Positions 10,583-50,860 of a stretch of DNA of 51,589 bases are shown in pieces. Under the pieces are notes generated by a model that saw nothing but the letters and a program-made list of their open reading frames with translations, was not told where the DNA came from and ran no database searches. The DNA comes from an uncultured Lachnospiraceae bacterium (GTDB lineage: Bacteria > Bacillota > Clostridia > Lachnospirales > Lachnospiraceae): the NCBI GenBank assembly GCA_947385425.1, contig CANDKY010000011.1, forward strand, positions 1-51,589. Reading direction: 5' to 3'. The translations under genes were made by a program, and so were the position numbers. The stretch's first letter is position 1. Each line of letters opens with the position of its first letter.

Positions 10583-10697
10583 CCTATTCCAGTTCCGTAT
10601 CTGCCCACGCAATGCCCCTCTCTATGGAAGCATTTCCGGCTGCTTCCGCATCCTGAAATCCTTCCGGGCATTCCGTGGGCAGATACTGTTCCAGTCC
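10583..10697 (-). promoter_or_regulatory. GGA-rich hairpin leader element, copy 1 (nrdD)
   Basis: Read on the minus strand: GGACTGGAACA, a 21-bp nearly perfect stem (arms 10597-10617 and 10666-10686), an inner hairpin, then GGAACTGGAATAGGAGG, in which the last six bases are the nrdD SD. The loop region contains several more GGA motifs. It shares about 20 bases of loop sequence with copy 3 at 19634-19750, although their stems differ. Confidence 0.75.
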
Positions 10698-10718
10698 GTC
10701 CCCGTTTTTTTATAAGGT

Positions 10719-10759
10719 AAAAATACGCATTGCGGGTATTGGAAATACCCGAAATGCGT
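10719..10759 (-). terminator. Terminator-like hairpin inside the nrdD leader
   Basis: A 16-bp stem with one mismatch (arms 10725-10740 and 10744-10759) and a tiny loop is followed on the minus strand by TATTTTTACC. Because a consensus promoter lies upstream at 10830-10858, this hairpin is within the nrdD leader. It could act as an attenuator rather than only as the end of the aminotransferase transcript. Confidence 0.6.
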
Positions 10760-10772
10760 GTACATATCTACC

Positions 10773-10822
10773 ATTTACTATATGTGGTATGAATATGTTT
10801 CATCTGTCCATATTTAGTGGTC
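10773..10822 (-). promoter_or_regulatory. Possible NrdR boxes upstream of nrdD
   Basis: Two related A/T-rich sites, TTACTATATGTGGTA (about 10775-10789) and CCATATTTAGTGGTC (about 10808-10822) on the plus strand, are spaced by about three helical turns just downstream of the -10 box. Paired sites at whole-turn spacing near class III RNR promoters are typical of NrdR, but the match to the consensus is partial. Confidence 0.4.
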
Positions 10823-10829
10823 ACGTACT

Positions 10830-10858
10830 AGTATAACGAAACCCTGTCACTCTGTCAA
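10830..10858 (-). promoter_or_regulatory. nrdD promoter
   Basis: On the minus strand TTGACA (10853-10858) and TATACT (10830-10835) are separated by exactly 17 bp, an almost perfect housekeeping promoter. It gives a leader of about 250 nt before the nrdD start. Confidence 0.8.
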
Positions 10859-10927
10859 TGACAGGATGGACTAAAAAATAACCAAAAAGGCGGATACATT
10901 TTGTGGCAGATTACCCATTGACAAAAA

Positions 10928-12103
10928 CTACGCGCCAATCATCCCGGACTGTCTCACAGCCTCCACAGCCTCTTTTATCTTTTCCACCGGCATAGTAAGC
11001 GCAAACCGGACATGTCCCTTCCCCAAAGATCCGAAGCTGCTCCCCGGCGTACACAATACACCGGATTTTTCCATCAGTTCCATCACAAACGCCACATCAT
11101 CCTCCCCGTATTTTTCGGGAATCTTCCCCCAAGCGAACATAGTCCCCTCGCTGTCCGGTATCTCCCAGCCAATCCGGCGGAATCCCCCGCAAAGCGCGTC
11201 CCTTCTCTCCTGATACCGGGCGCATTGTTCCTTAATCCTGCCATCATCACCGGTCAGCGCCGCTATCGCGCCGTACTGCACCGGAAGAAACGTCCCATAA
11301 TCAATCTGTGACCGCAATTTCTTAAAATTCGCCACAATATCCTTATTGCCGACAAGAAACCCCATCCGCGCCCCTGTATAGTTAAAAGATTTAGACAGGG
11401 AATAAAATTCGACACACACCTCTTTCGCCCCCGGTATCGAAAGAATCGATATCCCCTCCCTGCCGTCATAAATAATATCCGAATACGCATTGTCATGGAC
11501 AATCACAATCCCGTTTTCCTTCGCCCATGGGATCAGTTTCTCATAAAAACTGCGCGGCGCCGCCTTGCATACAGGGTTTAACGGATAGGATACCACCATA
11601 AATTTAGCATCCCGGCATACCTGCCTGTCCATACCTTCCAGATCCGGCAGATATTGATGCTCCGGCAATAATTCATAAGTTACCAGCTTCGCCCCCACAA
11701 GGGAAGGGCCGATAGAAAAAATCGGATACCCCGGATCCGGCACCAGCACCACATCCCCCTCGTTGCATAAAGTCAGACCGATATGTGTGATCCCTTCCTG
11801 TGAACCATATACCGACATTATTTCCTCCGCTTCCAGCTCCACCCCATACCGCTTCCGGAACCTGTGGATCACCGCCTCTGTCAGCTCCGGCAAATCAGCC
11901 AGAGCATACTTATAATTCTCCGGCTTCTTCGCCGCCTCCACCACCGCGTCTATAATATACTGCGCCGGCTTAAAATCCGGTGTCCCCACCGAAAGATTAT
12001 AAACCTTCCTCCCCTGCGCCTCCAATTCATTCTTCTTTTCATTTAATACCTGAAAAATCCCTTCCTCAAAATCCTTCATCCTGTCTGCAAATACAATCTC
12101 CAT
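10928..12103 (-). CDS. Class I/II PLP-dependent aminotransferase
   Basis: A 391-residue fold-type I aminotransferase resembling the LL-diaminopimelate/alanine aminotransferase branch. Visible landmarks are NLSVGTPDFKP near the N-terminus, YGSQEGITH at the cofactor-phosphate region, YPLNPVCKAA, the HDNAYSDI Asp/Tyr pair that contacts the pyridine ring, and YSLSKSFNYTGARMGF with the Schiff-base lysine. Substrate cannot be assigned from sequence alone. It lies downstream of the WYL regulator, separated by a very long inverted repeat and by leader element copy 2. Confidence 0.88.
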   Translation of the reverse strand: MEIVFADRMKDFEEGIFQVLNEKKNELEAQGRKVYNLSVGTPDFKPAQYIIDAVVEAAKKPENYKYALADLPELTEAVIHRFRKRYGVELEAEEIMSVYGSQEGITHIGLTLCNEGDVVLVPDPGYPIFSIGPSLVGAKLVTYELLPEHQYLPDLEGMDRQVCRDAKFMVVSYPLNPVCKAAPRSFYEKLIPWAKENGIVIVHDNAYSDIIYDGREGISILSIPGAKEVCVEFYSLSKSFNYTGARMGFLVGNKDIVANFKKLRSQIDYGTFLPVQYGAIAALTGDDGRIKEQCARYQERRDALCGGFRRIGWEIPDSEGTMFAWGKIPEKYGEDDVAFVMELMEKSGVLCTPGSSFGSLGKGHVRFALTMPVEKIKEAVEAVRQSGMIGA

Positions 12104-12115
12104 TTTTTGCCCTTT

Positions 12116-12238
12116 CTATTCCAGTTCCGAATCTGTCAGGAAAAGGCGCATAACAGCAGAAGAATAATTGTCCATAATGACGGCCAATTTTTCTTCTGGC
12201 GCCTTTTCCTGACAAATTCTGTTTTTATTCCAATTCCG
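12116..12238 (-). promoter_or_regulatory. GGA-rich hairpin leader element, copy 2 (aminotransferase)
   Basis: Minus strand: GGAATTGGAATA, a 20-bp stem with one mismatch (AATyTGTCAGGAAAAGGCGC and complement), an inner AGAAGAA stem, an apical loop containing ATGGACA, and the closing GGAACTGGAATAG. The downstream SD here is the weaker AAAGGG. The copy ends 13 nt before the ATG. Confidence 0.72.
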
Positions 12239-12257
12239 TACCTTTCCTGAACAACCA

Positions 12258-12500
12258 GCTCCGCTGCCTTAATGCCGGCCACTGCCGCACAGGATAGCAG
12301 AAATCCATTCAAAAAAATGTTGATATTTCTTACTGCTTTTCCTGACTGGCCTGCTGCTGTTTTGGCGGTGTTGTCTGACCGAAGGGAGTTTCACCGCCAT
12401 AGCAGCAGGCCAGACAGGAAAAACAGTTAGAAATATCCCATTTTTGCAGTTGGATTTCTGCTATCCTGTGCGGCAGCGGCCGGCATTAAGGCAGCGGAGC
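12258..12500. repeat. Very long inverted repeat (about 110-bp arms)
   Basis: Arms at 12258-12370 and 12392-12500 are nearly complementary along their full length, with a few mismatches and small indels, around a 21-nt loop. The outer 45 bp are almost perfect. It fills the space between the WYL regulator stop and leader copy 2. No ORF is present. In RNA it would form an exceptionally stable rod; in DNA, a cruciform. Confidence 0.85.
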
Positions 12501-12519
12501 GTCCTCCCCCCCCTCCCCT

Positions 12520-13530
12520 TCAATTCCCATACTCCCCCAAAATCCCCGCCAGATAATCCCTGTACCGTCCCGCCACACCTTCCGGCGATACAATTCTCAC
12601 CTCTTTGCCCAGCCCCGTAACCCAGCCGAAAAACTGGCTGCTGACAGCCGCCTCCACCCTCACAAGAAACCTCTCTTCCCCTTCCCCACTCAAATCCTTC
12701 TTACGGACATCAATCTCCCGCCCAAACCGATCCAGGGCAATCCCCACCATATGCCCCGGCATTTCCAAAACAACCCTGGTTTCCTCACCGCCAAACATAC
12801 CGAAAGTCCTGTTCGTATAAGCCGCAATATCAAACTGCCGGAAACTGTCCGCGCCAGCCCTGACAGCCCCTTCCGCCAGTTCAATCCTGTCCATTTTATC
12901 CACACGGTAATGCTTGATTTTATCCTCCGCCCCGTCATAAGCAACAAGATAATAATTCTCATCCTTACACGTCAGCGCCCACGGGCTCACCTGATATTTC
13001 TCCCCGTTCCGGCGCGGCTTAAGCTCCTTGCCCGGTGTCCATTCCATGTACCGGAACCTTATCTGGCAGTCCTCCCCGATCGCCCTGTGAATATGTTCCA
13101 CATTATAATATACACTTTCATTCTCCGTTTTAATCCGCCCGGCCACATATACCTGGCGGCGCAGCTGCTTCGCCCCGTGCTTCCCCGCCAGCTTTTCAAT
13201 TTTCCGTATCAAATCCCTGGATTTCTTCAGTGTCAGAAACCGGGAAGACTGCACCGCATCCGCCAAAAGTTTTAACTCCGCCAGTTCGAACTGCCTCCCT
13301 GCCAGATAATAACCGCCCCCGGCGCGCGCTTTTACATACACAATATCATACCCAAACCGCATTAACTGCTCTATATCATTATAAATCGATTTCCTCTCCG
13401 CCGAAATATCATATTTCCCTAATTCTTCAATTAGCTGCTGCGTAGACATACAATGCTGTTCATCTGTCTCTTCTTCCAGTATCTTAACGATATACAACAG
13501 CTTCAGCTTCTGGTTTGCCGATTTTGCCAT
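12520..13530 (-). CDS. WYL-domain transcriptional regulator (DeoR-type HTH)
   Basis: A 336-residue regulator with an N-terminal helix-turn-helix (about 1-70; STQQLIEELGKYDISAERKS followed by a Y-N-D-I recognition segment) and a WYL ligand-sensing domain (about 145-230) containing ICQ-like strands and SPWALTCKDENYYLVAYD. WYL regulators typically respond to nucleotides or nucleic-acid ligands. GGGAGGAG lies just upstream of the ATG. No defence or CRISPR genes are adjacent, so its target is unknown; the downstream aminotransferase is the only candidate in the window. Confidence 0.88.
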   Translation of the reverse strand: MAKSANQKLKLLYIVKILEEETDEQHCMSTQQLIEELGKYDISAERKSIYNDIEQLMRFGYDIVYVKARAGGGYYLAGRQFELAELKLLADAVQSSRFLTLKKSRDLIRKIEKLAGKHGAKQLRRQVYVAGRIKTENESVYYNVEHIHRAIGEDCQIRFRYMEWTPGKELKPRRNGEKYQVSPWALTCKDENYYLVAYDGAEDKIKHYRVDKMDRIELAEGAVRAGADSFRQFDIAAYTNRTFGMFGGEETRVVLEMPGHMVGIALDRFGREIDVRKKDLSGEGEERFLVRVEAAVSSQFFGWVTGLGKEVRIVSPEGVAGRYRDYLAGILGEYGN

Positions 13531-13554
13531 CCGTCTCCTCCCTCAGGACATACT

Positions 13555-14253
13555 TTAACAGCCCTCCAGAACCGCCCGGATCTCATTCAGATTCTTAATT
13601 TCATAATCCGCCTTAACCTCCGAAAGATTCCCAGCCCCGCCCGGATTATACCAGCAGGAGGCAATCCCCGCCCGTTTCCCTCCCAGTATATCGCTGGTCA
13701 GGGAATCCCCGACAATGACAGCCCGCTCTTTCCTGAAACCGGGAATCAGGGCAAAACACCGGTCAAAATATTCCTTCTGCGGCTTCGGCGCCCCCATCTC
13801 CTCCGACACAAAAATACCGTCCGCCAGCTTATCCAGCCCGGATAATGCCAGTTTCTTCCGCTGCGTCCGGCTGACACCGTTTGTCACCAGATACTGCCTG
13901 CAGACTCCCCGCAGGCTTTTCACTATCTCATACGAATTGTCCAGAAAATAATAAACGCTCCCCAACGCCTCCGCATATTCTTCCTGGAATGCCGCCGCGT
14001 CCACACCCACAGCCCCTATCTCCTGGAATAATGTCCGGAAACGTCCCTGCAGCGCTTCTTTCTTCCCTATCTCCCCTGTCTCTATCCGCCTCCAATACCC
14101 TTCGTTAATCTCCGAATACCTCGCCACAATTTCATCATCCGCTTTCAGCCCAAACACTTCAAAGCAGTACCGCAACGCATAATCTTCCGATCTTTTAAAA
14201 TCCAACAACGTCTGATCCACATCCCACAATATTATATCAAACCTGCCCACCAT
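13555..14253 (-). CDS. HAD-superfamily hydrolase, YjjG-type nucleotidase
   Basis: A 232-residue HAD phosphatase. Motif I is WDVDQTLLDF (Asp11, Asp13), motif II VTNGVS, motif III Lys in GAPKPQKEYF, and motif IV GDSLTSDILGG. The TNG and long cap resemble YjjG (5'-nucleotidase acting on non-canonical pyrimidine nucleotides). That fits the nucleotide-metabolism genes nearby, but specificity is inferred. The ATG at 14253 is used since it has GGGGAGG just upstream and begins the conserved domain. The 25-bp gap to the WYL gene suggests co-transcription. Confidence 0.87.
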   Translation of the reverse strand: MVGRFDIILWDVDQTLLDFKRSEDYALRYCFEVFGLKADDEIVARYSEINEGYWRRIETGEIGKKEALQGRFRTLFQEIGAVGVDAAAFQEEYAEALGSVYYFLDNSYEIVKSLRGVCRQYLVTNGVSRTQRKKLALSGLDKLADGIFVSEEMGAPKPQKEYFDRCFALIPGFRKERAVIVGDSLTSDILGGKRAGIASCWYNPGGAGNLSEVKADYEIKNLNEIRAVLEGC

Positions 14254-14584
14254 TTCCTCCCCATACTGCCAATGCCGCCCCTGTCCGCAGCCCGGACGCA
14301 AACCAAACGGAACATACAATCAGACAGGGGAACATCCGTCCCCTGCCCCGCCCTTCCTCAGCACAAACCACAAAAGGGCATCCATAACCCATGGACACCC
14401 CTCCTTTCCCGCCGCAGCATAATCCCCTCTGTGCGTACATTCTCCCTTTTCCCACTGCATGGCCAAGACTGGCAGCAGGAAAACAAAGCCCTCATAAGCG
14501 GGACAGGGTATTCTTCACAAGTACGCCAAATTCACAGCCCTGCCTTCCCGCCAGCCGGAACTGCTACAACACCTAAGACGGAAC

Positions 14585-14767
14585 CTACTTCCCGGCATTG
14601 ACAGTATCCGGCATGGAAGGCTGCCCTGTGCCACCTGACTTTTTCCGGTCTGAGCTCTTGCTCCATTTCACACCAAGGACACACGCAACAATTACCAATG
14701 CCACGATCAACGCAAACAACAAAAGATAAGATAAAAAAGAATTTATGAACAAAACTAAACTTGCCAT
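14585..14767 (-). CDS. Small single-pass membrane protein, unknown function
   Basis: Sixty residues with one strong hydrophobic segment (about 4-33, FINSFLSYLLLFALIVALV...) followed by a basic, polar C-terminal tail. The start has GGAGGG 8 nt upstream, which supports translation. It lies alone between RNase H and the HAD gene. No family recognised. The 14254-14584 stretch downstream shows no gene or clear signal. Confidence 0.6.
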   Translation of the reverse strand: MASLVLFINSFLSYLLLFALIVALVIVACVLGVKWSKSSDRKKSGGTGQPSMPDTVNAGK

Positions 14768-14829
14768 AATGCTGACCCTCCGCTCGTCCTATTCTCACAG
14801 AAATTCCTATTCTGCCTTTCCGCTATTTA

Positions 14830-15312
14830 TCATACCACCTTTTCTACCGTATCGTCAAGTAGCCCGTCGCCATCCGCCGCACTTGTCGCCAGAAAATCAC
14901 ATCTTTCGTTCTGCGGATGCCCGTCATGCCCCTTTACCCAGGTAAATTTCACCTGATGAGGCTCCCTGGCCTTTAAAAGCCGTTTCCACAAATCAATGTT
15001 TTTTACCGGCTGGTTGCTGCTGTTCTTCCAATTCCTTTTCAGCCATCCGTCCACCCAATGTTTGTTAAAAGCATCCGTCACATACTTAGAATCCGATATA
15101 ACCTCTACCTCGCAGGGCCTTGTCAGTGCCTCCAGGCCGACAATAACCGCCATCAGTTCCATCCGGTTATTGGTAGTCTTCTTATATCCTGCCGAATATT
15201 CCCGCTCATGCAGCGTCCCTTTGGAATCAATATAATGCAATACCGTCCCATATCCCCCCGGCCCGTCCGGGTTCCCTCTTGCAGAACCATCCGTATAAAT
15301 TGTTACCTTCAT
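14830..15312 (-). CDS. rnhA: Ribonuclease HI
   Basis: Cleaves the RNA strand of RNA-DNA hybrids (R-loops, primers). The 160-residue length is canonical. The catalytic DEDD residues are visible: Asp8 (YTDGSARGNPDGPGGYG), Glu52 (NNRMELMA), Asp74 (ISDSKYV) and Asp139 (NERCD), with the catalytic-loop His129 in WVKGHDG. No extra N-terminal hybrid-binding domain. The SD GAGGG lies 4 nt before the ATG. Its upstream region holds tandem structured elements. Confidence 0.95.
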   Translation of the reverse strand: MKVTIYTDGSARGNPDGPGGYGTVLHYIDSKGTLHEREYSAGYKKTTNNRMELMAVIVGLEALTRPCEVEVISDSKYVTDAFNKHWVDGWLKRNWKNSSNQPVKNIDLWKRLLKAREPHQVKFTWVKGHDGHPQNERCDFLATSAADGDGLLDDTVEKVV

Positions 15313-15407
15313 ATTTCCCTCATTCCTGTACCACTACATACACACACTTAATTCATCCCTTCTGCACCACCACATATACCTGCTGCAATGCTGCCGCCCA
15401 AATCCGC

Positions 15408-15546
15408 CATAAAAAGCCTGGAAGAATGCCCTCTTTCTGGGCATTCTTCCGCGTGAAACGGGTTTGCCCATGCATCCTGCATGGCAAACCCTAGAAGCTC
15501 TTAGGCGGCGTCCTTTGACGCCTTAGAACTTCTTTTCACGCTAACC
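15408..15546 (-). repeat. Structured 3' element, copy A
   Basis: Minus strand, 5' to 3': closing stem GCGTGAAA, hairpin GAAGTTCT...AGAGCTTC capped by GGCGTC-AAAG-GACGCC, hairpin GGGTTTGCC...GGCAAACCC, closing TTTCACGC, then a 12-bp stem (GGAAGAATGCCC with its complement) and GGCTTTTTATGG, which is an intrinsic terminator. It is a tandem duplicate of copy B. Confidence 0.8.
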
Positions 15547-15579
15547 AACATGCTGCCGCCTGCGACAGCACAAACCTGC

Positions 15580-15714
15580 CATAAAAAACCTGGAAAAACG
15601 CCTCTTTCCCGGCGTTTTTCCGCGTGAAATGGATTTGCAATGCTACGCATGGCAAATCCTAGAAGCTCTTAGGCGGCGTCCTTTGACGCCTTAGAGCTTC
15701 TTTTCACGCTAACC
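15580..15714 (-). repeat. Structured 3' element, copy B (supplies the stop codon of the MutS-like gene)
   Basis: Same architecture as copy A with compensatory differences: third helix GGATTTGC with GCAAATCC, terminator stem GGAAAAACGCC with GGCGTTTTTCC, then a T6 run. The element begins inside the end of the MutS-like gene: its TGA stop is the TGA of GCGTGAAA. Confidence 0.8.
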
Positions 15715-17389
15715 ATGTCCCGCTCTCCAGGAAATGCTCCGCCAGCCGTTCCGCTTCTTCGATAATATCCTCCTCATAGCCCATCACCCCCAGCAGCCGG
15801 ATAGCATTGCGCGAGCCCGCCCTTCCCTTTTTCAGTTGATAGCCAAACACCACATCGTCCCCGTCTACCTCTTCCTCAAAGTGATAATTATTATAATGCA
15901 TTTCCAGCAGATGTGTCAATTCGATATCATGGGTTGCCGCAAAGCAAAGTACATTTCTCCCTGCCAGGCTCTTCAATATCTGTGTGGAAGCCGCAATCCG
16001 CTCCACCGTATTGGTGCCGCGCAGCACTTCATCCACAAAGCAGAGCACCGGATTCCCCCCGTCGGAAGGCTGATCCAGAATCCGCTTCAACGATTTTATT
16101 TCCACAATATAATAACTTTCGCCCCCTGCCAGATCGTCCCGCAATGCCATGGAAGACAAAATCCGGTACAGGCCGCCGCTGTACTTTTCCGCCAGACAGG
16201 TATGCACCGTCTGGGCCAAAATTGCATTGATGGCAACCGTCTTTAAGAAAGTAGATTTTCCCGAAGCATTGGAACCGGTCAGCAATACCCCCTTCTTGGT
16301 CATAATACTGTTTTTCACCGGGCTTTCTATCATAGGATGATAACCGTCCTCTATCAGCAGCTCCTTCCCGCCATGGAAACAGGGCAGGCACCAGGTTTCC
16401 TTGGAAGCCCGGTAACAGCCTATGGCAATCACCGCTTCCATATATCCGAGAAGCGTGATCATCCGGTCTATGCCCTCACTGTTTTTCCTCACCTCAGCCA
16501 GCATACTGTTAAACTTAATCAAATCCACATGGAAAACCATCCGCACATAGTCCATCAGTATTTCCAGCGGATTCCCGGATGCCCCCATGCGGGCAGGCGA
16601 CATCAGGATATAAGAACCGGTTTTGAATTTCCCCATTTTCTTCCGGTATCCACCCAATTCCTCCAGCTCCCTTGCCAAAACAGAGACAGGCAGTTTTTCT
16701 ATCTCCTCCGCATTTTTCAGCAGCCGCAGAATATAAGAAAAACTTGTAATATACGGGTCAATTTCATTTTTTGTCTTAAAATAGGAAACGATATTGTAAC
16801 TCATCGCCGCCGTGAAAGCAAGCACGCCTGCCTGGACGGAAGCAAACATAAGAAGCAGGGCCGCCGCAATGGCCAAATCTCCCAGATAATGCTTTGCGCT
16901 GCTCCTCTCCCCAAGCAAATCCAGATAATGCAGATAATCATAAATGGAATATTTCCCGGTTTTCCCAATCTGGGCAAACCGTATCTGGTATTCCACCCTC
17001 TTATCCCTGTTTGCCGAAAAATACTGTATCTGCTGCTCCATTACCTCCATATTCTCCGTATCCTGCATGGGTGTGCGCAACAGATAATAAAGATATTCCT
17101 CCCCCGCCGCCGAATAGGTATGGTTCATCTGCTGGAACACTTTATCCATGCTCAAGTCATTCCATGTAATATCATCAATATGGAACCCTTCCGCCTTATG
17201 CTCCCGGAAATAACGGGAAATCTTCTCCATTTCCTCCGGCTTGTATTCCTCCCGTTCCGGAAGCACACCGTAATTTTCCCGCAGCCATTCCACAAACCTG
17301 GCCTTTTTCTTCCGTTCACCATACCAGCCGTTCAGCATAATCAGCGCCAGTATACCAAAGATCGTCAATGCAAGCACTATATATTCCAT
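15704..17389 (-). CDS. Membrane-associated MutS-like ATPase
   Basis: A 561-residue protein with the MutS core and C-terminal ATPase domains but without the mismatch-binding N-terminal domains. A hydrophobic segment occupies residues 3-20, and a second hydrophobic pair lies at about 170-200, so it is probably membrane-attached. Walker A is TGSNASGKSTFLKT (about 375); Walker B and the following signature are VLCFVDEVLRGTNTVER. The organisation matches the group of small MutS homologues in Firmicutes whose function is unknown; classical mismatch repair is unlikely. Its SD (AGGAGTTT) derives from a 38-bp tandem duplication of the preceding gene's 3' end, and its stop lies in structured element copy B. 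Confidence 0.85.
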   Translation of the reverse strand: MEYIVLALTIFGILALIMLNGWYGERKKKARFVEWLRENYGVLPEREEYKPEEMEKISRYFREHKAEGFHIDDITWNDLSMDKVFQQMNHTYSAAGEEYLYYLLRTPMQDTENMEVMEQQIQYFSANRDKRVEYQIRFAQIGKTGKYSIYDYLHYLDLLGERSSAKHYLGDLAIAAALLLMFASVQAGVLAFTAAMSYNIVSYFKTKNEIDPYITSFSYILRLLKNAEEIEKLPVSVLARELEELGGYRKKMGKFKTGSYILMSPARMGASGNPLEILMDYVRMVFHVDLIKFNSMLAEVRKNSEGIDRMITLLGYMEAVIAIGCYRASKETWCLPCFHGGKELLIEDGYHPMIESPVKNSIMTKKGVLLTGSNASGKSTFLKTVAINAILAQTVHTCLAEKYSGGLYRILSSMALRDDLAGGESYYIVEIKSLKRILDQPSDGGNPVLCFVDEVLRGTNTVERIAASTQILKSLAGRNVLCFAATHDIELTHLLEMHYNNYHFEEEVDGDDVVFGYQLKKGRAGSRNAIRLLGVMGYEEDIIEEAERLAEHFLESGTWLA

Positions 17390-17393
17390 AAAC

Positions 17394-17492
17394 CAAACTC
17401 CTGTCCCGCTTCCGCTTTATACTTCATAAATCGAACTCCCGCCCCGCTTACGCTTTATACTTCACAAATCGAACTCCTGTCCTGCTTCCGCT
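17394..17492 (-). repeat. 38-bp tandem repeat spanning the stop codon of the MBL gene
   Basis: Two full units and one partial unit of 38 bp (CGAACTCCyGyCCyGCTT...). The right-most unit encodes the last codons of the MBL hydrolase (GQEFDL and stop); the other copies are non-coding and lead into the SD of the MutS-like gene. Slippage would change intergenic length without altering the protein. Confidence 0.8.
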
Positions 17493-18178: not shown

Positions 18179-18198
18179 ACACTTTTTTTGCCCGCCTA

Positions 18199-18240
18199 TC
18201 CTTATATTTCCTTTCCTTATATTTCCTTTCCTTATATTTG
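18199..18240 (-). repeat. 15-bp tandem repeat in the MBL gene leader
   Basis: Nearly three units of CTTATATTTCCTTTC. On the minus strand each unit reads as an AAGGAAAGG purine run, so copy number could change the number of SD-like sites or, if the upstream ATG is used, the N-terminal length in steps of five residues. Confidence 0.7.
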
Positions 18241-18249
18241 GCAAGCCCC

Positions 18250-19620: not shown

Positions 19621-19633
19621 ATCTCCTGTGCCT

Positions 19634-19750
19634 CCTATTCCAGTTCCGCCAAAGTGTCATAAAGACCCATTTTAGGGAAGAATTTCCGGCCGCTCCTGCG
19701 TCCTGAAATCCTTCCGGGCCTTTGCGATGCTCTGGCTGTTCCAGTTCTGC
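19634..19750 (-). promoter_or_regulatory. GGA-rich hairpin leader element, copy 3 (purine permease)
   Basis: Minus strand: AGAACTGGAACA, a 17-bp stem weakened by wobbles and mismatches (arms 19720-19736 and 19648-19664), a GGA-rich loop that is homologous to copy 1 (CGGAAGGATTTCAGGA), then GGAACTGGAATAGGAGG. It occupies almost all of the space between the mtaD stop (19763) and the permease ATG (19620). Confidence 0.72.
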
Positions 19751-22837: not shown

Positions 22838-22912
22838 CCTATTCCAGTACCGCATATATAGTAGAAGAATCCTTCCCGTCTCTTCTGCTATATATGCTGT
22901 TTCCAGTTCCGC
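22838..22912 (-). promoter_or_regulatory. GGA-rich hairpin leader element, copy 4 (RelB-like gene)
   Basis: The most compact copy. Minus strand: GCGGAACTGGAAACA, a 17-18-bp stem with one mismatch (GCATATATAGyAGAAGA and complement), loop GACGGGAAGGA, then GGTACTGGAATAGGAGG ending 12 nt before the ATG. Confidence 0.78.
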
Positions 22913-24226: not shown

Positions 24227-24310
24227 ACCGCCTGTCCCTCCTTTCTTTGCTTCCCGCAGCCCGATTTCTCCCTGCGCATGCCCCCCGATTCCTATATTCT
24301 TCCTTTTATT

Positions 24311-24450
24311 GCTATCTGCTTATTTTTACTGTTATTTGTTTATTTTTACTGCTATTTGATTACGTTTACTGCTATCTGCTTATTTTTACTGCTATTTACT
24401 TACTTTTTCTGCCATTTGCTTATTTTTACTACTATTTGATTACGTTTAAT
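24311..24450 (-). repeat. Seven-unit 20-bp tandem repeat overlapping a gene end
   Basis: Units of GCTATyTGcTTATTTTTACT, degenerate at a few positions, repeat seven times without gaps. The last unit contains the final codons and stop of the flavodoxin-fold reductase (NVIK then TAG at 24432), so the array seems to have grown from the 3' end of that gene into the spacer before the kinase. It is A/T-rich on the coding strand and has no hairpin. Confidence 0.85.
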
Positions 24451-25013
24451 TCCTGCAGCATACGCCGGATCCGGATTCCCTGGTTTAGCACTTCCTCCCG
24501 TTTGGAAACCTCCATGTCCAGCCCTTCGATCACAAAAGAATGGATTTCCCGGATTCCCAGCATATTGGCAAATGCCTTTACATACTCTGCCCCCATATTC
24601 CTCCCGCCCGCATATCTCCCGCTTGTGGAAAAATAGGACAGCTTTTCCGCCCTGCAATACCCCGCGCTCCGGTTCCCCTCATATCCGAAAGTCAATCCGC
24701 ACACCGCAACATGTTCGAAATAAACCTTTAACAAAGATGGGAAGGAAAGATTCCAGCAGGGTGCGGCTACCACAATCTCATCCGCCTCCTTAAATTGTTT
24801 CGCATAGCGGAACATCTCATGCTGCAGCTCCCCTCTTTCCATTAATTGCTCCCGCAGCTCTATCCCCTCCGCAGTTAAAGGCGATATCTGCTGCTCACTC
24901 AATATGACTGTTTCCGTTTCCGTATCTTCACCCAATGCCTGCAGATAACTTTCATATAACCTTTTTGTCGCTGATTTTTCCCCACGGACACAGCAATCCA
25001 CTACAAGTACCAT
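24432..25013 (-). CDS. Flavodoxin-fold NAD(P)H oxidoreductase (azoreductase/AcpD-like)
   Basis: A 193-residue FMN-dependent reductase of the azoreductase/NAD(P)H quinone oxidoreductase fold. It starts MVLVVDCCVRG, where family members have a phosphate-binding loop after the first strand. The flavin-contact motif AAPCWNLSFPSLLKVYFEHV and the later YFSTSGRY loop are clear. The natural substrate is unknown (quinones, azo dyes or nitro compounds are usual). Its 3' end is the seed of a 20-bp tandem array. Confidence 0.83.
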   Translation of the reverse strand: MVLVVDCCVRGEKSATKRLYESYLQALGEDTETETVILSEQQISPLTAEGIELREQLMERGELQHEMFRYAKQFKEADEIVVAAPCWNLSFPSLLKVYFEHVAVCGLTFGYEGNRSAGYCRAEKLSYFSTSGRYAGGRNMGAEYVKAFANMLGIREIHSFVIEGLDMEVSKREEVLNQGIRIRRMLQELNVIK

Positions 25014-34845: not shown

Positions 34846-34968
34846 CAGAATGCCCTGGGGAGGGCATTCTGCCGCGCGAAATGGATTGTCCATGCTGCGC
34901 ATGGCCAATCCTAGAAGCTCTTAGGCGGCGTCCTTTGACGCCTTAGAGCTTCTTTTCGCGCTCAGCCC
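34846..34968 (-). repeat. Structured 3' element, copy C (encodes the end of the ABC ATPase)
   Basis: Same core as copies A and B. The closing helix reads GCGCGAAA with TTTCGCGC, a paired change from GCGTGAAA/TTTCACGC; the third helix is GGATTG with CAATCC; the last stem is CAGAATGCCCT with AGGGCATTCTG, without a T tract. The ATPase's last codons (REKKL, TAA) lie inside the element. Confidence 0.78.
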
Positions 34969-42011: not shown

Positions 42012-42013
42012 GC

Positions 42014-42986: not shown

Positions 42987-42999
42987 AAGAGCCTCCCGC

Positions 43000-44163: not shown

Positions 44164-44292
44164 CTTCTTCCCATCCTCCTGTTTCCTAAGCTTCTTCACC
44201 AAACCCCGGCAGACATTCCCTGTCAGGGAGCGTATCTCAAAATCCATTCCCACAATCAGGCACGATCCCGCCCTTCATGAGGACACACCGTT

Positions 44293-45378
44293 TCAGAGCT
44301 TGTTCTCACTCTCAAATTTCTTCATAAACTCCACTAATTTCTCAACGCCCTCGATCGGCATGGCATTATAAATGCTGGCACGCATACCGCCGACACTCCT
44401 GTGCCCTTTCAGGTTCTCAAAACCTGCTTCCTTTGCCTTCTTAACAAATTCCGCATCCAGATCTCCATCCCCGGTTACAAAAGGCACATTCATAAGGGAA
44501 CGGTCTTCCGGCCTTACCGTCCCTTTAAAAAGACTGCTCCCGTCAAGGAAATCGTATAAAATCTTTGCTTTCTTTTCATTATATTCCTTCATTGCCGCAA
44601 GGCCGCCCTGCTTTTTCAGCCATTTAAATACCTTGCCGCATATATAAATCCCGTAGGCAGGGGGCGTATTATAAAGGGAATCCGCATCCGCATGAGTCTT
44701 ATATTTTAACATGGTAGGCGTACCCGGAAGCACCTCCTCCGTGATCAGGTCTTCCCTGATAATTACGATAACCACTCCGGCCGGCCCTACATTTTTCTGT
44801 ACGCCGCCATAAATCACACCGTATTTTGTCACATCTACCGGCTCTGACAAGAAACAGGAGGACACATCCGCTACCAGCGTATGGCCTTTCGTATTCGGCA
44901 GAGTCTTAAATTTTGTACCGTAAATCGTATTATTCTCGCATATGTAAACATAATCCGCATCCTCCGGAATCGGAAGATCCGAACAGTCCGGAATATAAGA
45001 AAATGTCTTATCCGCCGAAGAAGCCACTTCCACCGCTTCACCGTAAATCTTAGCCTCCTGATATGCCTTCTTAGCCCACTGCCCGGTAACGATATAAGCC
45101 GCCTTCCTGTTTTTCATCAGATTCATCGGTATCATGGCAAACTGCTGGCTTGCCCCGCCCTGCAGGAACAGTACCTTATAATTGTCAGGGATATCCATCA
45201 GATCCCTTAAATCCGCTTCCGCTTCCTTAATAATAGTATCGTATGCCTTGGAACGGTGGCTCATCTCCATCACGGACATGCCGGTTCCCCTGTAATCTAA
45301 CATCTCATCTGCTGCTTCTTTTAACACTTCTTCAGGCAAAACCGCAGGCCCTGCCGAAAAATTATAAACTCTGGACAC
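44293..45378 (-). CDS. serC: Phosphoserine aminotransferase
   Basis: Second step of serine synthesis (and 3-hydroxypyruvate-type transamination in pyridoxal synthesis). About 361 residues starting VSRVYNFSAGPAVLPE, the family N-terminus. The PLP lysine is in YGGVQKNVGPAGV, with GGASQQFAMIP and the C-terminal GHRSVGGMRASIYNA. The GTG at 45378 is favoured because AGGAGG lies 9 nt before it; the ATG at 45402 has no SD and the SD would be inside the coding region. With serA downstream it forms a serC-serA unit; no serB is visible. Confidence 0.93.
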   Translation of the reverse strand: MSRVYNFSAGPAVLPEEVLKEAADEMLDYRGTGMSVMEMSHRSKAYDTIIKEAEADLRDLMDIPDNYKVLFLQGGASQQFAMIPMNLMKNRKAAYIVTGQWAKKAYQEAKIYGEAVEVASSADKTFSYIPDCSDLPIPEDADYVYICENNTIYGTKFKTLPNTKGHTLVADVSSCFLSEPVDVTKYGVIYGGVQKNVGPAGVVIVIIREDLITEEVLPGTPTMLKYKTHADADSLYNTPPAYGIYICGKVFKWLKKQGGLAAMKEYNEKKAKILYDFLDGSSLFKGTVRPEDRSLMNVPFVTGDGDLDAEFVKKAKEAGFENLKGHRSVGGMRASIYNAMPIEGVEKLVEFMKKFESENKL

Positions 45379-45435
45379 TTTTTCTTCCTCCTGTATATTC
45401 ATACACTTTCTTTTTACATTTTATACATAAATTTT

Positions 45436-45464
45436 ATTCTAACTCCCTTAACCTTATTCGTCAA
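45436..45464 (-). promoter_or_regulatory. serC promoter
   Basis: Minus strand TTGACG (45459-45464) and TAGAAT (45436-45441) with a 17-bp spacer, about 55 bp before the GTG start. No T-box or riboswitch fold was recognised. Confidence 0.65.
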
Positions 45465-45541
45465 CCATTAATCGGAGGAAAACCCGGAAATAAATTTATT
45501 CCGCCTGTGCGGTTAGTCTCCTGTGCCCTTCCGGCTCCTCC

Positions 45542-47449
45542 CTAATAAAACATCACCACCGGAGTCCCTACCTCTGCCATCTCATATATCCTGCTCATGG
45601 CATCATAAGGCGTATTGATACAGCCATGGGAACCCCCTGTTTTATAGATTTCCCCTCCGTATTCGCTGCGCCATGACGCGTCATGAATCCCGATATTACC
45701 CTTCACAGGCATCCAGAAATTCACATGGGCAGCATAGCCAGGCCCCTGCAGGACGCGGTTCCTCGCTTTCCCATACACGTAATTAACACCTTCCGGCGTT
45801 CCCATCCGCCGTCCCGTATTGCCTGTTACAACGGGCGTCTCAACTTCCAGCGTCCCGTCCTTATAATAGTACATCATCTGTTCTGTCATATCCACTTCGA
45901 TATAAGTATCGCCGATATCGTTTTTGCCTTCTGCCCATCCCTTCTGCAGGTAAACCGGTTCACGGACTTCCGCCGCCCTGTCCCGGAATGCCTGTTTCAG
46001 ATACTCCTTTTCCGCTTTCCTGTCTATTTTATTCCCATAAATACCGCCCTTTACCATAACCGTCTCCCCCCGGGTAGCATGAAACGGCCGGACGCCTCCC
46101 AGAGTATCATATTCGTCCGCCAGTGCTTCGATAAACGCCTCAATTTTCATGTCATCCGGCAGCAGCCTTCCTTCCCCGTCCGTCAGAAAATTCCCGTCTT
46201 CATCCACGGCAATCCAGTCACAGGCCACCGAAGCGTCAACCGGTACTTCGTTTGCCCCGAAACGGTAAACAATATGGCAATCCTGAAATTCCTCAATCAA
46301 TTCCCACCGTTCCAGCACTTCCTTCATCTCGCTGCTGTAAGGCAGATCCGTGTAACAGCCTGCCTCCGCCAAATCAACCTGTGTTTCCATGGAAAGCAGC
46401 GCCCTTTCCACTGCTTCCATCGCCTTTTCCTTATCAAGGACATGTTTCCGTTCATCCGCTAATATATATCCGGCCGCCGTCTTCCGTATTTCCACACGGC
46501 GTTCCTTCTCCGTCCGCGGATCCGCATAGTCCGGAATCCGCCCCAATGCGGCGGATAATTTCTCTTTTTCAAAGGAAATGGCCGGCAGCAGTTTCCCCGA
46601 CTTTGCCGACGCCAAATTCTTCACCCACAAATACGGGTCCTGCCTGTCCAGATACTTTTGGAGTTCCTCCCTGAAACAGAAGGTATAGCCGATTTCCTCC
46701 GGCGAAATCACATACGCGCCGCCCTGCCCGTCATAAACAGTAATCCCGTCATAATGGCACGACTGTAAAAGTTCCCGCTCCACTTCCTCCACTGTCTTCC
46801 CGGTACAATAAACGCCGTTCATCCAGGTGCCGTAACTGAACCCGTCCTCATAATACACAGCAAGCGCCATGTAAAGCCCGAATAACACAAATAAAAGCAG
46901 CGCTGCCGCCGCTGCTGCCCATGCCGCTGCCTTTCCAATCCGTTTCCTGTACTTCCCTTTGCTGTGTTTCTTCTCCCCTTCCCCTACGGAAGCCGCCTTT
47001 CCTTCCCATCCCGGCCCATGCCGCACATCTTCTCTTTCCAATCCCGGCTTTGGGCTTTCAAGCCCATTCCAGGCAGCCTTCTCTTCCATTCCCGGCCCTG
47101 GCTCTTCCAATTCCTCCCAGAGAACCTCATCCTCTTTCATTTCCTCCCCTGGCTTTTCCGGCTCATTCCGGACTGCCTCCCACTCTAATTTCCCCCTGTT
47201 CCGGGCTGCTTCTAATTCCGGCTCTGACATCCCAGGCCACTTCCAGGCCGCCGGCTCTTCTTCCGGCTCATCCCAATCCTCCAGTTCAACGATAACCAGT
47301 TCCCGGTTTCCGGCGTCTTTATTCTCACTATCCTTATTATTCTTACGCCCCCGGTATTTCTTCCTCCCCTGTATCGTGGCCCCTTCTTCTTTCTTACTTC
47401 TCTTTTCCCTTTTCTTTTTTCTTTCCGTCCCTTCACCCCAGTTTTTCAT
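45542..47449 (-). CDS. Membrane-bound L,D-transpeptidase (YkuD) with long acidic cytoplasmic tail
   Basis: A 635-residue bitopic protein that should make 3-3 cross-links in peptidoglycan. Residues 1-170 are cytoplasmic: a basic stretch, then a Glu/Pro/Trp-rich tail with loosely repeated AAxN and EEPGPG units. TM 173-199; then one or more peptidoglycan-binding/YkuD-associated domains (about 210-500). The catalytic domain ends with HDASW and SHGCINTP, with Cys610 as nucleophile. The tail is far longer than in typical family members and may receive intracellular signals. It overlaps the HAD gene's end by 17 nt, so they are coupled. Confidence 0.9.
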   Translation of the reverse strand: MKNWGEGTERKKKREKRSKKEEGATIQGRKKYRGRKNNKDSENKDAGNRELVIVELEDWDEPEEEPAAWKWPGMSEPELEAARNRGKLEWEAVRNEPEKPGEEMKEDEVLWEELEEPGPGMEEKAAWNGLESPKPGLEREDVRHGPGWEGKAASVGEGEKKHSKGKYRKRIGKAAAWAAAAAALLLFVLFGLYMALAVYYEDGFSYGTWMNGVYCTGKTVEEVERELLQSCHYDGITVYDGQGGAYVISPEEIGYTFCFREELQKYLDRQDPYLWVKNLASAKSGKLLPAISFEKEKLSAALGRIPDYADPRTEKERRVEIRKTAAGYILADERKHVLDKEKAMEAVERALLSMETQVDLAEAGCYTDLPYSSEMKEVLERWELIEEFQDCHIVYRFGANEVPVDASVACDWIAVDEDGNFLTDGEGRLLPDDMKIEAFIEALADEYDTLGGVRPFHATRGETVMVKGGIYGNKIDRKAEKEYLKQAFRDRAAEVREPVYLQKGWAEGKNDIGDTYIEVDMTEQMMYYYKDGTLEVETPVVTGNTGRRMGTPEGVNYVYGKARNRVLQGPGYAAHVNFWMPVKGNIGIHDASWRSEYGGEIYKTGGSHGCINTPYDAMSRIYEMAEVGTPVVMFY

Positions 47450-48272
47450 TTGCCCTCACATGTTCCTCCAGCCATTTTGCTACCCCGTCCTCCTCGTTGC
47501 TCCCTATGATCCCGGTTGCCGCGGCCTTTAGTTCCTCCACTGCATTTTCCACTGCATATGCCTCATCGGATATCTCAAACATAGGGATATCGTTGACGGC
47601 ATCCCCAAAAGAAATCACCCTGCCGCAGCCCCACAGCTCTTTCAGCTTCGCGATGGCTTTTGCCTTCGTTGCATTGGCAGGCATTATTTCACACCAGTAT
47701 TCCGGCCTGTACAGTTCCTGCTGAATCGTACACCGGTAACGGGAATCTTTGGAAAAAATATCATAAACCGGCCACAGCTCTTCCTGTTCCCCGATACAGG
47801 TAAAATAAAACATTTCGCCCTGGTACAATTCCTCCCTGCCTGCCACGGGCCGGAGCCGCCTGTCCCCTTTCCTGTTTCCCAAATACCGCCGTATCCCGTC
47901 ATTTTCCTCTCCCGCTATCCAGGACAGTTTTTCCTCACCCTGGATAAAAGAATAAACCAACGGGCTGATCCCGCACTGCCCGAAAGCCTTCTCCGCCTGC
48001 GCCATTTCCTCTCCGGAAAACCCTTCCTGCGACAATACTTCCCCGGTTGAAGCCTGAAATATAAAGGCTCCGTTATACGCAATCACCGGGATCCTGGCAG
48101 ACAGCCCTTTTGTCACTACGGAAGCGGAAACCAGTGACCTCGCCGTAGCATAAGTAAACAGCATCCCTTTCTCCACCAGGCCATTAATAATGTCCAAACT
48201 TTTCGGAGAGATCCTGTCGCTTCTGTTCAACAGCGTTCCGTCCAAATCCGATACATACAATATCCTTTCCAT
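47433..48272 (-). CDS. Cof-type HAD phosphatase
   Basis: A 279-residue type IIB HAD phosphatase. Motif I VSDLDGTLLNRSD, motif II YATARS, the Lys region NATKAKAIAKL and motif IV ISFGDAVNDIPMFE. Such enzymes dephosphorylate sugar phosphates or cofactors such as FMN; specificity is not readable. Its last 17 nt overlap the L,D-transpeptidase gene and contain that gene's SD. Confidence 0.9.
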   Translation of the reverse strand: MERILYVSDLDGTLLNRSDRISPKSLDIINGLVEKGMLFTYATARSLVSASVVTKGLSARIPVIAYNGAFIFQASTGEVLSQEGFSGEEMAQAEKAFGQCGISPLVYSFIQGEEKLSWIAGEENDGIRRYLGNRKGDRRLRPVAGREELYQGEMFYFTCIGEQEELWPVYDIFSKDSRYRCTIQQELYRPEYWCEIMPANATKAKAIAKLKELWGCGRVISFGDAVNDIPMFEISDEAYAVENAVEELKAAATGIIGSNEEDGVAKWLEEHVRANEKLG

Positions 48273-48303
48273 TTCTGCCCATCCTGTAACTTTAGAACTT
48301 TTT

Positions 48304-49685
48304 TCACACTACGGTTTCAAGAATCCTCTTCCCATCATATTCTGTTTCCGTCACACCGCAAACTTTATTCTTATTAAAATTGAAACTAAGGAGATAACCT
48401 CTATCCAACCGATATGCATCCAAATACTGTGCCAGTTGTTCTTTCCCCTGGCGGTTATACTCCTGCCCGCGGTAAGTTTTCATTTCAATAACATATTGCC
48501 TGCCATGATAATCCACAATCACATCTGTACGTTGCTGGTTACGTGTCTGTGCTTCTATATAATAATTCCCGGTACCATTAATGATGGGTTTTAAATACAT
48601 GAGAAAGATAAGCCCTCCAGAAACTGATTTTTATCCTGGGGCACCAATTTCCCTTCCTGATTTTTCAGCAATTCTTCCGACAGGAAATAATTATACATAT
48701 GTGTCTCAAAAATACGGTTTGCAACAGCCACATTCCCATCCTTCTCTACAACAAAACCAAACATGACGCCAATACTGATATTCCGATTATACACATTATA
48801 CGGATAAACCCACCCATTGAACAAAATATTCTGCAGCATAGAACTTAATTCCGGGTACTCCGCCAGATGTTTTACCATATCTTCGAACAGTGTATTTGGC
48901 TCTTTTAACACAATCTTTACCGCCTCAGCCACACCGGCGCCTGTCCATCTCCTGTTTTCAGCATCATACCGGCAATTCCCGTCAGTTTCCGCCATAACTT
49001 TACAAATATATGACACCAAAAATGGATAGCCTGAAGTATTTGCATAAATATCACGGGCAACCGCTTCTATATCCATCCCTGTCCCATTTTCTTTTTCATA
49101 TTCCTGCAGCATCCCTGCAATATCCTTTTCTGAAAAATCCATTTTTACCGGAAACCTCGCCGCAATATTCCAGGGGCTGTTATACTGCCCGCCTCCTTCT
49201 TTTCCTATTTTCTGTTTTAGGTTCTTAACGTCATATACCCCGGCCAGTATTACTGACTGGAAAGCCGGCCGGTTCCTCCTTTTCAGATACTTGTCCCGCA
49301 GCATACCAAGAAACGCAAGGAAAATTTCCTGATTACCGGCCTGATCCACTTCGTCCACAATCAATACCACCTGCTTTTCATTTTCCATGCATAACCTCGA
49401 TATGAAATTGGACAGCACACGCAAATCCACGCCCCCGGCTTCTTCCAGGCTCATCCTGCGGCATTCCTCCCTTATTCCCTCAGGTATACCTTCCACTTCG
49501 CCATAAAACATAGTATCATACAGTAAACCGCATACTCTCCTGCAAAAAGCATACTCATCTGTATAAGCCGATCCCCCCATTCCCTCAAGGCTGATGGAAA
49601 ATACTGTATAGGAACCTGCCAATGAACGTGCTAAACTATAAATCATAGTAGTCTTTCCATATAGACATCCATTGCACCATCTTCT
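48304..49685 (-). pseudogene. Broken AAA-ATPase/PD-(D/E)XK nuclease-type protein
   Basis: Two frames belong to one family (AAA ATPase with C-terminal DUF1703-type nuclease fold). The larger (49646 to 48591, 351 residues) has the ATPase: QVVLIVDEVDQAG is Walker B, and the P-loop remnant YGKTT lies just upstream of its first ATG without a start codon. It ends FLEGLSFSCI. The smaller (48600 to 48304, 98 residues) resumes in another frame with YLKPIINGTGNYYIEA, then TDVIVDYHGRQYVIEMK, the nuclease core (D and E-x-K). About 50 residues between them are missing. N-terminal truncation plus internal deletion and frameshift indicate a dead gene. Confidence 0.82.
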
Positions 49686-49770
49686 CTACACGGCGGCAAC
49701 TGTTTTCATCATACCATAGACGGGGTTCTTTTTCAAATCCTTAATACTGTTCGCAGCCAATGCCATTTCT

Positions 49771-50727
49771 TCAAATAATATTTCCGGCTAAATACTGTAC
49801 CGCCGCATCTATATCAGCCACATGCTCCGCCCGTTCCCCTTCATACTCTGCCGGATAACTCGTGCAGATCAATATTTCTTTATACTGTGCAGGCGTCAGC
49901 GAATCGTCTATCTCCATCAAAATAGCTACAAACCCGGCCGTTACTACTGACATGGAGGAAACGGATGTGTATAATTGCCCTTTATATATTTCATTGTAAT
50001 CCGGTTCTTCCGCTATGCTCAGATAATCATTCGTAAATAGCGTATTATAATCATACTGAAAAATATTAATGTCCGCATCCCGGTTATAATACCCGTCTCC
50101 ACTGCTGTCCCAAATCCCCCACGGCAAAATATTCCCCGGGTTATCATAATGGATAAAAGTGGTCACTATCCCTTTCCCGATCGCCTCATTTACCGCCTCG
50201 TCTAACCGCCCCCGGTTCTCTGCGGATATTGCCTGATGGGAAAGTGTCAGGATATCAATCTCCTGCTCTTCGGCCCAACGGATTGCTTCAACCAATGCAT
50301 CCACCCATTCCTTTTCACTGTCAGGATCATATGTCCCCAACGCATATATTTCCACACTGGGCGCAATTTCCCGCAATGTCTGCGCCATCCAGTACCCATG
50401 CTCGCTGGCATGGTTAAATGCCTCCTCATGATCCTCAAAAACAGTAAAGTCCTTGCCGCCCGCATATAACCCTTCATGCTCTTCATATCCGAAACACCAG
50501 TCCAGGATGCCTACCCTGATACCGGCCCCGGTGCTCACCTTATGCGCCTCCTTGACATGATGCATGGAATCATAGGTTTCCCTCAAATTCGCATCCGGGA
50601 AATGGATATTCCAAAGTTCCCCGCCCATGCCCTTATGCAGCAAATAACCGTTAAATGCCGCCGAACAACCAAAGGCAAACGCCAACAATACCACCATGAC
50701 CCTTTCCCATTTTCCTGCATTCCTCAT
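49771..50727 (-). CDS. Membrane-anchored subtilisin-like (S8) serine protease, divergent
   Basis: A 318-residue protein with one N-terminal membrane anchor (about 9-28) and a reduced S8 fold facing outward. The triad is inferred as Asp76 (RVGILDWCF), His110 (SEHGYWMAQTL) and Ser258 (TSVSSMSVVTAGFVAI), where the usual GTSMAAP is replaced by SSMSVV. The Asn of the oxyanion hole is not obvious (HYDNPGN is the nearest). No prodomain. The ATG at 50727 follows AGGAGG from leader element copy 5; the longer frame to 50766 would read through that element. It could be a low-activity protease or a pseudo-enzyme. Substrate unknown. Confidence 0.8.
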   Translation of the reverse strand: MRNAGKWERVMVVLLAFAFGCSAAFNGYLLHKGMGGELWNIHFPDANLRETYDSMHHVKEAHKVSTGAGIRVGILDWCFGYEEHEGLYAGGKDFTVFEDHEEAFNHASEHGYWMAQTLREIAPSVEIYALGTYDPDSEKEWVDALVEAIRWAEEQEIDILTLSHQAISAENRGRLDEAVNEAIGKGIVTTFIHYDNPGNILPWGIWDSSGDGYYNRDADINIFQYDYNTLFTNDYLSIAEEPDYNEIYKGQLYTSVSSMSVVTAGFVAILMEIDDSLTPAQYKEILICTSYPAEYEGERAEHVADIDAAVQYLAGNII

Positions 50728-50736
50728 ATTAATCCT

Positions 50737-50860
50737 CCTATTCCAGTACCGCAGCAGCCCCTGCACGAACCCCCCTCTTGTGGAAGAATAACTGTCCGCA
50801 AATACATGGCCACTTATTCTTCCAGGTTCCGGCCAGGGCTGCTGTTGTTTCCAATTCCGC
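50737..50860 (-). promoter_or_regulatory. GGA-rich hairpin leader element, copy 5 (S8 protease)
   Basis: Minus strand: GCGGAATTGGAAACA, outer stem CAGCAGCCC with complement, inner stem TGGAAGAATAA with complement (50781-50822), an apical loop with TGCGGACA, then GGTACTGGAATAGGAGG. The inner stem and loop resemble copy 2. Confidence 0.75.

Follow-up and report, generated by a model that had tools for sequence, protein, structure and literature searches.

Hairpin units in front of five genes

The minus strand of a 51,589-nt contig from an uncultured Lachnospiraceae bacterium (GenBank assembly GCA_947385425.1, contig CANDKY010000011.1; this whole stretch is called the window in the following) carries five copies of a hairpin-forming leader, each located directly 5' of a start codon. 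As stated in the initial annotation of the window, the genes behind them are functionally unrelated, being nrdD, an aminotransferase, a permease, a RelB-like gene and the gene of a weakly matched S8-like protein (Table 1). We propose, with a probability of roughly 0.7, that the copies belong to a family of non-autonomous mobile hairpin elements lodged directly 5' of native Shine–Dalgarno (SD) sequences. Read in gene direction, the window copies show a GGAAyTGGAA-like flank, (A)nCAGC, a stem, an inner hairpin, the second half of the stem and GCGGwACTGGAA, followed by the SD and the start codon. Compared with dinucleotide shuffles the five copies have fold z values between -7.9 and -3.6, the SD is unpaired or partly paired in all five predicted folds, and a covariance model detects the units with E values from 6e-23 to 1.7e-10, with copy 1 being itself a member of the training set. 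With at most 1 mismatch allowed, the window contains 24 matches to the flank GGAACTGGAA, where 3.95 would be expected. For the end motif together with the SD (at most 3 mismatches) the 4.42 Mb genome has 153 matches, compared to 29 for a reversed control. A hairpin had been claimed for all five copies, which holds for the outer stem of each, but copy 4 has no inner hairpin, as 47 inner model positions are replaced by 2 in the covariance-model alignment. For nrdD the real start is probably the second ATG (10571), because the first ATG of the open reading frame (ORF) lies only 2 nt after GGAGG.

Table 1: Units, terminal repeats and landing place in the window (P1, outer stem; P2, inner hairpin).
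Feature	Position	Strand	Evidence
Unit 1, A-type inner hairpin, 5' of nrdD (anaerobic ribonucleotide reductase)	10587..10691	-	E 6.1e-23; fold z -7.9
Unit 1 left terminal repeat, degenerate (GGACTGGAA)	10689..10697	-	read from sequence
Unit 2, B-type inner hairpin, 5' of class I/II aminotransferase	12119..12224	-	E 1.6e-20; fold z -7.6
Unit 2 left terminal repeat (GGAATTGGAA)	12228..12237	-	motif search; sibling copies elsewhere show that the repeats belong to the unit
Unit 3, A-type, 5' of xanthine/uracil-type permease	19638..19741	-	E 2e-19; fold z -4.4
Unit 3 left terminal repeat (AGAACTGGAA)	19739..19748	-	motif search
Permease gene SD core AGGAGG after GGAAT of unit 3; landing place, outside the unit	19631..19636	-	7 empty relative sites; permutation test, 17 sites
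Unit 4, short form without P2 (P1 kept), 5' of RelB-like gene	22842..22902	-	E 1.7e-10; fold z -4.3
Unit 4 left terminal repeat (GGAACTGGAA)	22901..22910	-	motif search
Unit 5, B-type, 5' of S8-like protease gene	50741..50850	-	E 2.9e-19; fold z -3.6
Unit 5 left terminal repeat (GGAATTGGAA)	50849..50858	-	motif search

From the fetched loci 168 unit candidates were taken by pairing to the end motif. The unit consists of GGAACTGGAA-(A)nCAGC, the outer stem P1, the inner hairpin P2, the second arm P1' and GCGGAACTGGAAT; it is about 105 nt long (104–108 nt in 78 of the 86 candidates from the source genome) and often arranged in tandem. Its ends are direct repeats, though the P1 arms themselves are inverted. 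The covariance model that the initial annotation had called for and the covariation test were based on 52 of 60 listed units, out of 100. These 52 diverse units share a helix system with 17 pairs in P1, 8 pairs in P2 plus 2 near the loop, where an A.G or G.A mismatch is found, an asymmetric 3' bulge and nearly invariant ends. Two-sided changes are seen at 26 of the 27 pairs, all four Watson–Crick types are used at many P1 pairs, and the covariation score is 0.729 compared to 0.212 in shuffles. The earlier statement that the stems differ but remain paired is also borne out, with 90.6% of the pair cells being paired against 62.2% in shuffles and 39–49% with the partner slid, where preselecting the units for P1 pairing raises the paired percentage but leaves the variety of pair types unaffected. 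Among 13 A-type loci of the same length from the source genome the regional identity is 0.98 and 0.95 for the ends and 0.89 and 0.81 for P2, compared to 0.36 for the outer arms of P1, 0.36 for the P2 loop and 0.50 for the bulge. Thus, conservation acts on the sequence in P2 and the ends, and on the pairing in P1. In units from G001–G003, three relatives from the same genus (L110, L117, L499, L504 and others), P1 is often interrupted by a symmetric internal loop of purines (GGA facing a GGA-like stretch, with tandem G.A), which is apparently missing from most copies of the source genome.

A G.U pair of the sense strand reads as A.C on the other strand, and G.U outnumbering A.C is therefore a sign that the sense RNA is under selection. 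Counting one unit per locus, G.U exceeds A.C by 58 to 17 in P2 (p 2e-6) and by 30 to 17 in P1 (p 0.08), and these p values are optimistic because the units share ancestry. The P1 count is restricted to units in which 11 or more of 15 pairs are Watson–Crick (114 of 154, from 83 loci); it is 50 to 17 over all 114 units when several per locus are allowed, and 19 to 13 (p 0.38) for the source genome alone with one unit per locus. This preference in P2, together with the conserved sequence of P2 and the ends next to freely changing P1 arms, loop and bulge, speaks for hairpins that are now kept by the host as a cis-acting RNA, so that they would persist because of regulation. Candidate roles of such a domesticated leader are a 5' barrier to RNase J-type decay, an intercistronic insulator or a site for a protein reading P2. 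We take this to be a serious possibility, if not the probable one, and it is weighed below against the turnover of the units; already the host genes, having no common function, argue against it.

Native Shine–Dalgarno sequences and empty orthologous sites

An SD and a start codon are located just downstream of 76 of 85 arrays, compared to 1 of 85 on the antisense side and 289 of 1381 random positions. Since the search pattern contained the SD and many of the 85 array loci had been found with such a pattern, the test was repeated on SD-blind loci, namely the 32 places listed by the covariance search only, of which 5 were skipped (contig ends, or unit not re-found). An SD with start follows at 21 of these 27 loci, at 0 of 25 on the antisense side and at 95 of 410 random positions; the position relative to starts was a check that the initial annotation had asked for. 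A plain test for a downstream ORF (80 of 85 arrays) is weak alone, because 805 of 1381 random positions pass it as well, and the SD-plus-start test was used instead. On the other side, 68 of 84 cases have a co-directional open frame (90 codons or longer) whose end is no more than 200 nt upstream, at a median distance of 36 nt, a count without random control. Other genes located downstream of units elsewhere in the genome would, as read from their translations, encode asparagine synthase, ClpP, YebC, IlvB, LeuA, TrpE and Rex-like proteins. An asnB-like gene is a recurrent host, with a unit in four genomes (L001, L092, L094, L154) and none in G009.

A similar picture could arise from an ordinary interspersed repeat of the MITE, REP or BOX type that inserts anywhere, with the sense position before the SD representing the surviving insertions. 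The size, the copy number, the tandem modules and the patchy occurrence do resemble BOX and other small repeats as these are described in the accessible texts, but none of the 25 SD-blind arrays has an SD and start on the antisense side, and the junction abuts the edge of the SD more closely than survival alone would demand. We therefore consider this origin rather unlikely.

Empty orthologous sites show that GGAAT is the end of the unit and that the SD following it belongs to the gene. The SD-blind loci continue past GGAAT with differing SDs (AAGGAGAATAAAAATG, GGAGGAAAG, CAGGAGGAATT). In G009, the nearest relative (nrdD and the aminotransferase gene together are 83.5% identical in nucleotide sequence), 1.2 Mb could be compared; from 21 matches with at least 70% identity two spurious coding-sequence matches (L001 at 2703, L071) were removed, and of the remaining 19 comparable starts 17 are empty and 2 are occupied. 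Leaving out the two loci occupied in G009 (L043, L084), none of 10,000 permuted pairings of the 17 sites, a few of which (L051, for example) show a right end but no clear hairpin, matches the SD and spacer of the empty orthologue as well as the true pairing. For example, AGGAGGGATAAGATG is identical in both genomes, and AGGATCTTTTTATG in the source genome corresponds to AGGATTTTGTATATG in G009. As the empty orthologues match in SD and spacer, the SD is native to the host gene and the unit stops before it. Thus, the leader does not run into the SD as had been described. The same is seen at the permease gene, where both neighbouring genes are kept without a unit in all 7 relatives examined, whose empty sites have a similar TAGGAGG..AGGAGATATG tail; in front of the adjoining amidohydrolase gene there are units in G002 and G003 and, in G001, a remnant of a right end. 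No unit was found at the nrdD start in 13 relatives with a readable start (the match in G010 is partial with the start outside it, and G005 has only a weak distant match) or at the start of the aminotransferase orthologue in 12 relatives. This presence and absence at orthologues, above all the 17 of 19 empty starts in G009, contradicts a fixed regulon. A similarity of the right P1 arm to the native upstream sequence, as if the arms were copied from the target (permutation p 0.021, 17 sites), was driven by two loci and not adopted.

The flanks themselves can be assigned from sibling units of G002 located on different contigs, which are 93% identical in their inner and 92% in their outer parts (the neighbour statistics for siblings have G001, G009 and G000 outside their scope). 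By eye, their homology extends from the left terminal repeat through GGAAT, and therefore both GGAACTGGAA flanks are direct repeats of the unit. The conserved flanks of the initial annotation are hence part of the unit, except for their SD portion, which is the host gene's. The units could also have spread with no dedicated mobility, through homologous recombination or gene conversion among GGAACTGGAATAGGAGG leaders already in place. This would fit the inner parts being alike within a genome while the outer arms are unrelated, and the terminal direct repeats would permit changes in the arrays. However, the flank motif is missing both at the 17 empty sites of G009 and at the 7 permease sites without a unit, which leaves too little homology to start the process, and the distribution across genera is patchy, which makes this route improbable.

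Distribution, turnover and possible mobility

Using the covariance model, we found at least 150 units in the 4.4 Mb source genome and 79, 68, 51, 25 and 4 units in five relatives; these 6 carriers among 16 genomes of the genus fall at three places of a two-gene tree, and the other ten genomes have none. Family-wide, 8 of 299 genera (one genome each, source included) show matches at E 1e-5 or better, six of them with at least 10 matches (13 being scored at most) and two with a single match. The exact-pattern matches listed in named genomes are mostly titled Lachnospiraceae, Clostridia or uncultured bacteria and include Acetatifactor muris DSM 23669, IMSAGC_002, 526-35 and 1XD8-76; judged from their names, many of these genomes are presumably mouse-gut isolates or metagenome-assembled genomes. 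Exact-pattern matches in Flavobacterium and Allomuricauda look like chance.

The 89 arrays in the fetched stretches of the source genome are head-to-tail and comprise 51 single, 26 double, 7 triple and 5 quadruple units. At L433, L434, L441, L444 and L450 the right end (AACTGGAATA-like) is briefly reiterated in tandem after the last unit. Among sampled right-end sites (13 in G001, 26 in G002 and 24 in G003) there are 19 cross-species pairs at 11 genes, which do not give a co-occupation rate because they were drawn only from sites with a right end. Several orthologous genes have the hairpin in one of these species and the right end alone in another, as expected from recombination between direct repeats. 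In six comparisons of orthologous units with a hairpin in both species, not all of them independent, two-sided changes that preserve pairing are found at 1 to 6 of 20 P1 pairs, which together with the occupation of some genes in several species is in favor of the domesticated leader discussed above. The same comparisons show 2 to 5 of 20 pairs paired in one orthologue only, and this, like the relatives keeping the right end without a hairpin, speaks against it. The idea that the arms are renewed at every move, suggested by an outer identity that is flat whatever the inner identity, was dropped because loop and bulge are similarly unconstrained and the G002 siblings share their arms. The comparison of empty sites and polymorphic positions, which was made between species and not between strains of one species, supports mobility; with the empty sites, the sibling units and the turnover of sites it bears out the earlier option of a mobile cassette in the 5' untranslated region.

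The other option of the initial annotation was a CsrA/RsmA-type regulon, in which GGA motifs at the SD and in the loops bind CsrA and translation is repressed. GGA is indeed present in many loops and at the SD, and csrA, whose presence was to be checked, is encoded in the source genome. However, csrA does not track the units: no match was found in 3 of the 6 carriers, namely G003 (51 units, 97% complete), G009 (68 units, 83% complete) and G013 (4 units, 65% complete), and it is present in 9 of the 10 genomes of the genus without units. The CsrA core motif is A-N-GGA; by eye, ATGGA in some P2 loops matches it, but the GGAs of the conserved flanks and the SD are not preceded by A-N. In addition, the GGA of the SD is host sequence, and the helices are too long to resemble CsrA sites, so that a CsrA regulon is hardly credible.

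An enzyme for mobility was sought in two ways. An IS200/IS605 Y1 transposase does not fit as a candidate, since G001 (97% complete, 26 pattern copies) has no Y1 and G010 has 10 Y1 matches and no unit. The source genome contains 46 sense 5' halves of the A-type P2. A 3' half lies at the normal distance from 43 of them, two more belong to intact units, and in the remaining case the next unit follows after 102 nt; as all 46 are accounted for, no ORF-bearing A-type relative is seen. A phage was also considered as a vehicle, and viral contigs gave one exact-pattern match for each of two patterns, none of them convincing: one is a GC-rich chance match and the other, scoring 17.5 bits, is a weak and decayed unit whose neighbours on the contig look bacterial.

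Several points weigh against a mobile element. Among transposases, integrases and reverse transcriptases nothing could be tied to the units, the search having covered only Y1 transposases, no larger ORF-bearing copy appeared in the source genome when A-type P2 halves were searched, and no target-site duplication could be defined. Six of the 27 SD-blind arrays fail the SD-plus-start test. The copies of the source genome look old, with the free sites saturated and near-identical units confined to arrays (80 units of 54 loci), and present activity in this genome is therefore unproven. Finally, some genes carry units in several species, which could mean host function rather than mobility.

Taking these points into account, we still favor a mobile element, for which the following model is suggested by the comparisons above. 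A unit of about 105 nt, with its direct terminal repeats (GGAACTGGAA) around one long imperfect hairpin made of a hypervariable but paired P1 and a sequence-conserved P2, would lodge in sense directly 5' of a native SD core, mostly between the gene and a closely preceding open frame, and would be transposed by a putative trans-acting enzyme. The host SD would be retained and GGAATAGGAGG would not move with the unit. The unit would then be expected in an mRNA leader or intercistronic transcript, where the folds predict an SD left unpaired or partly paired, and after insertion it might act as an mRNA insulator or stability barrier. Recombination between the direct repeats could lengthen and shorten the arrays, and loss of the hairpin would leave a solo GGAACTGGAAT right end. 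One could also imagine an SD-addressed mobile RNA element that is copied within the mRNA leader and whose landing sites are chosen by SD recognition, for example by the 3' tail of 16S rRNA (anti-SD) on an SD priming or guiding reverse transcription, with the cDNA annealing at other SDs. Such a process would account for the exact SD edge, the sense-only orientation, the native SD being kept and the 5'-shortened copies; both the element and this route are highly speculative, and we give them very little weight.

In any case the landing place is the ribosome-binding site of ordinary housekeeping genes, and gene and SD are left unbroken. If the placement results from a mechanism, SD recognition would be a new targeting principle; if selection is the cause, a single genome provides no fewer than 89 natural insertions into leaders, many with matched empty orthologues in relatives. 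With arrays of 1–4 units and solo ends it might now be possible to test the influence of long SD-adjacent hairpins on mRNA decay and translation.

The window also contains other repeats and leaders. A second repeat of about 100 nt with a palindrome (..TAGAAGCTCTTAGGCGGCGTCCTTTGACGCCTTAGAGCTTC..) is present at 15443–15542, 15611–15710 and 34863–34962, the three copies being 65–90% identical to the reference copy. Upstream of the aminotransferase gene (about 12255–12600) there is a very long inverted repeat with arms around GCTCCGCTGCCTTAATGCCGGCC and its complement, which was not seen before the orthologue in relatives. The nrdD leader contains on the minus strand (about 10700–10860) a block conserved across the genus (..CTATACTATA..CCACTAAATATTGG..ATATATAGTG..), probably NrdR boxes as a guess, followed by a terminator-like hairpin in many members of the genus. 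A tandem array with a 20-nt period (CTATTTGCTTATTTTTACTG-like) and seven overlapping copies is located at 24272–24468.

Relation to known repeats and leader RNAs

The initial annotation had suggested a possible new structured family, and this is upheld by the absence of an Rfam match in the window; for positions 10500–12300 Rfam returned only weak matches to miRNA precursors and one other chance-like match, with E up to 5. A literature search, which covered neither supplementary tables nor subscription papers, found no paper describing the units, and they apparently form a large uncatalogued family of structured mobile repeats. TwoAYGGAY and CsrA-type leader RNAs have GGA-containing hairpin loops as the units do, but the units differ from them in having no Rfam match and in not being tracked by csrA. 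ERIC and Correia (NEMIS) elements have terminal inverted repeats of fixed sequence, whereas the unit ends are direct repeats. Both are described as small mobile repeats in transcripts that alter the mRNA through cleavage by RNase E or RNase III (PMC3049150, PMC10969869), and in the main text of the review on miniature inverted-repeat transposable elements (MITEs) the terms ‘Shine–Dalgarno’ and ‘ribosome binding’ do not occur (PMC10969869). REP sequences are high-copy extragenic palindromes that form clusters with alternating orientation in BIMEs, according to the accessible part of PMC2817692. Unlike REP/REPIN with RAYT, the arrays here are head-to-tail and a Y1 transposase does not track the units. 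A relative of the unit could be contained in the human-microbiome RNA set of PMC8040213.

A close resemblance is that to small repeats such as BOX and RUP of Streptococcus pneumoniae, which are interspersed, present in high copy number, predicted to form stem-loops and transcribed as 5' or 3' extensions of operons (PMC3049150). BOX also shares tandem inner modules of variable number, but according to the same accessible text it has different 5' and 3' modules around the boxB arrays, and a placement at the SD edge is not described there for BOX or RUP, the term ‘ribosome binding’ being absent from this text (PMC3049150). In contrast, the units described here are all alike, with direct-repeat ends, a sense position before the SD and a paired outer stem that varies freely. 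Like MITEs, they occur in many short non-coding copies at positions that are polymorphic between species and matched by empty sites.

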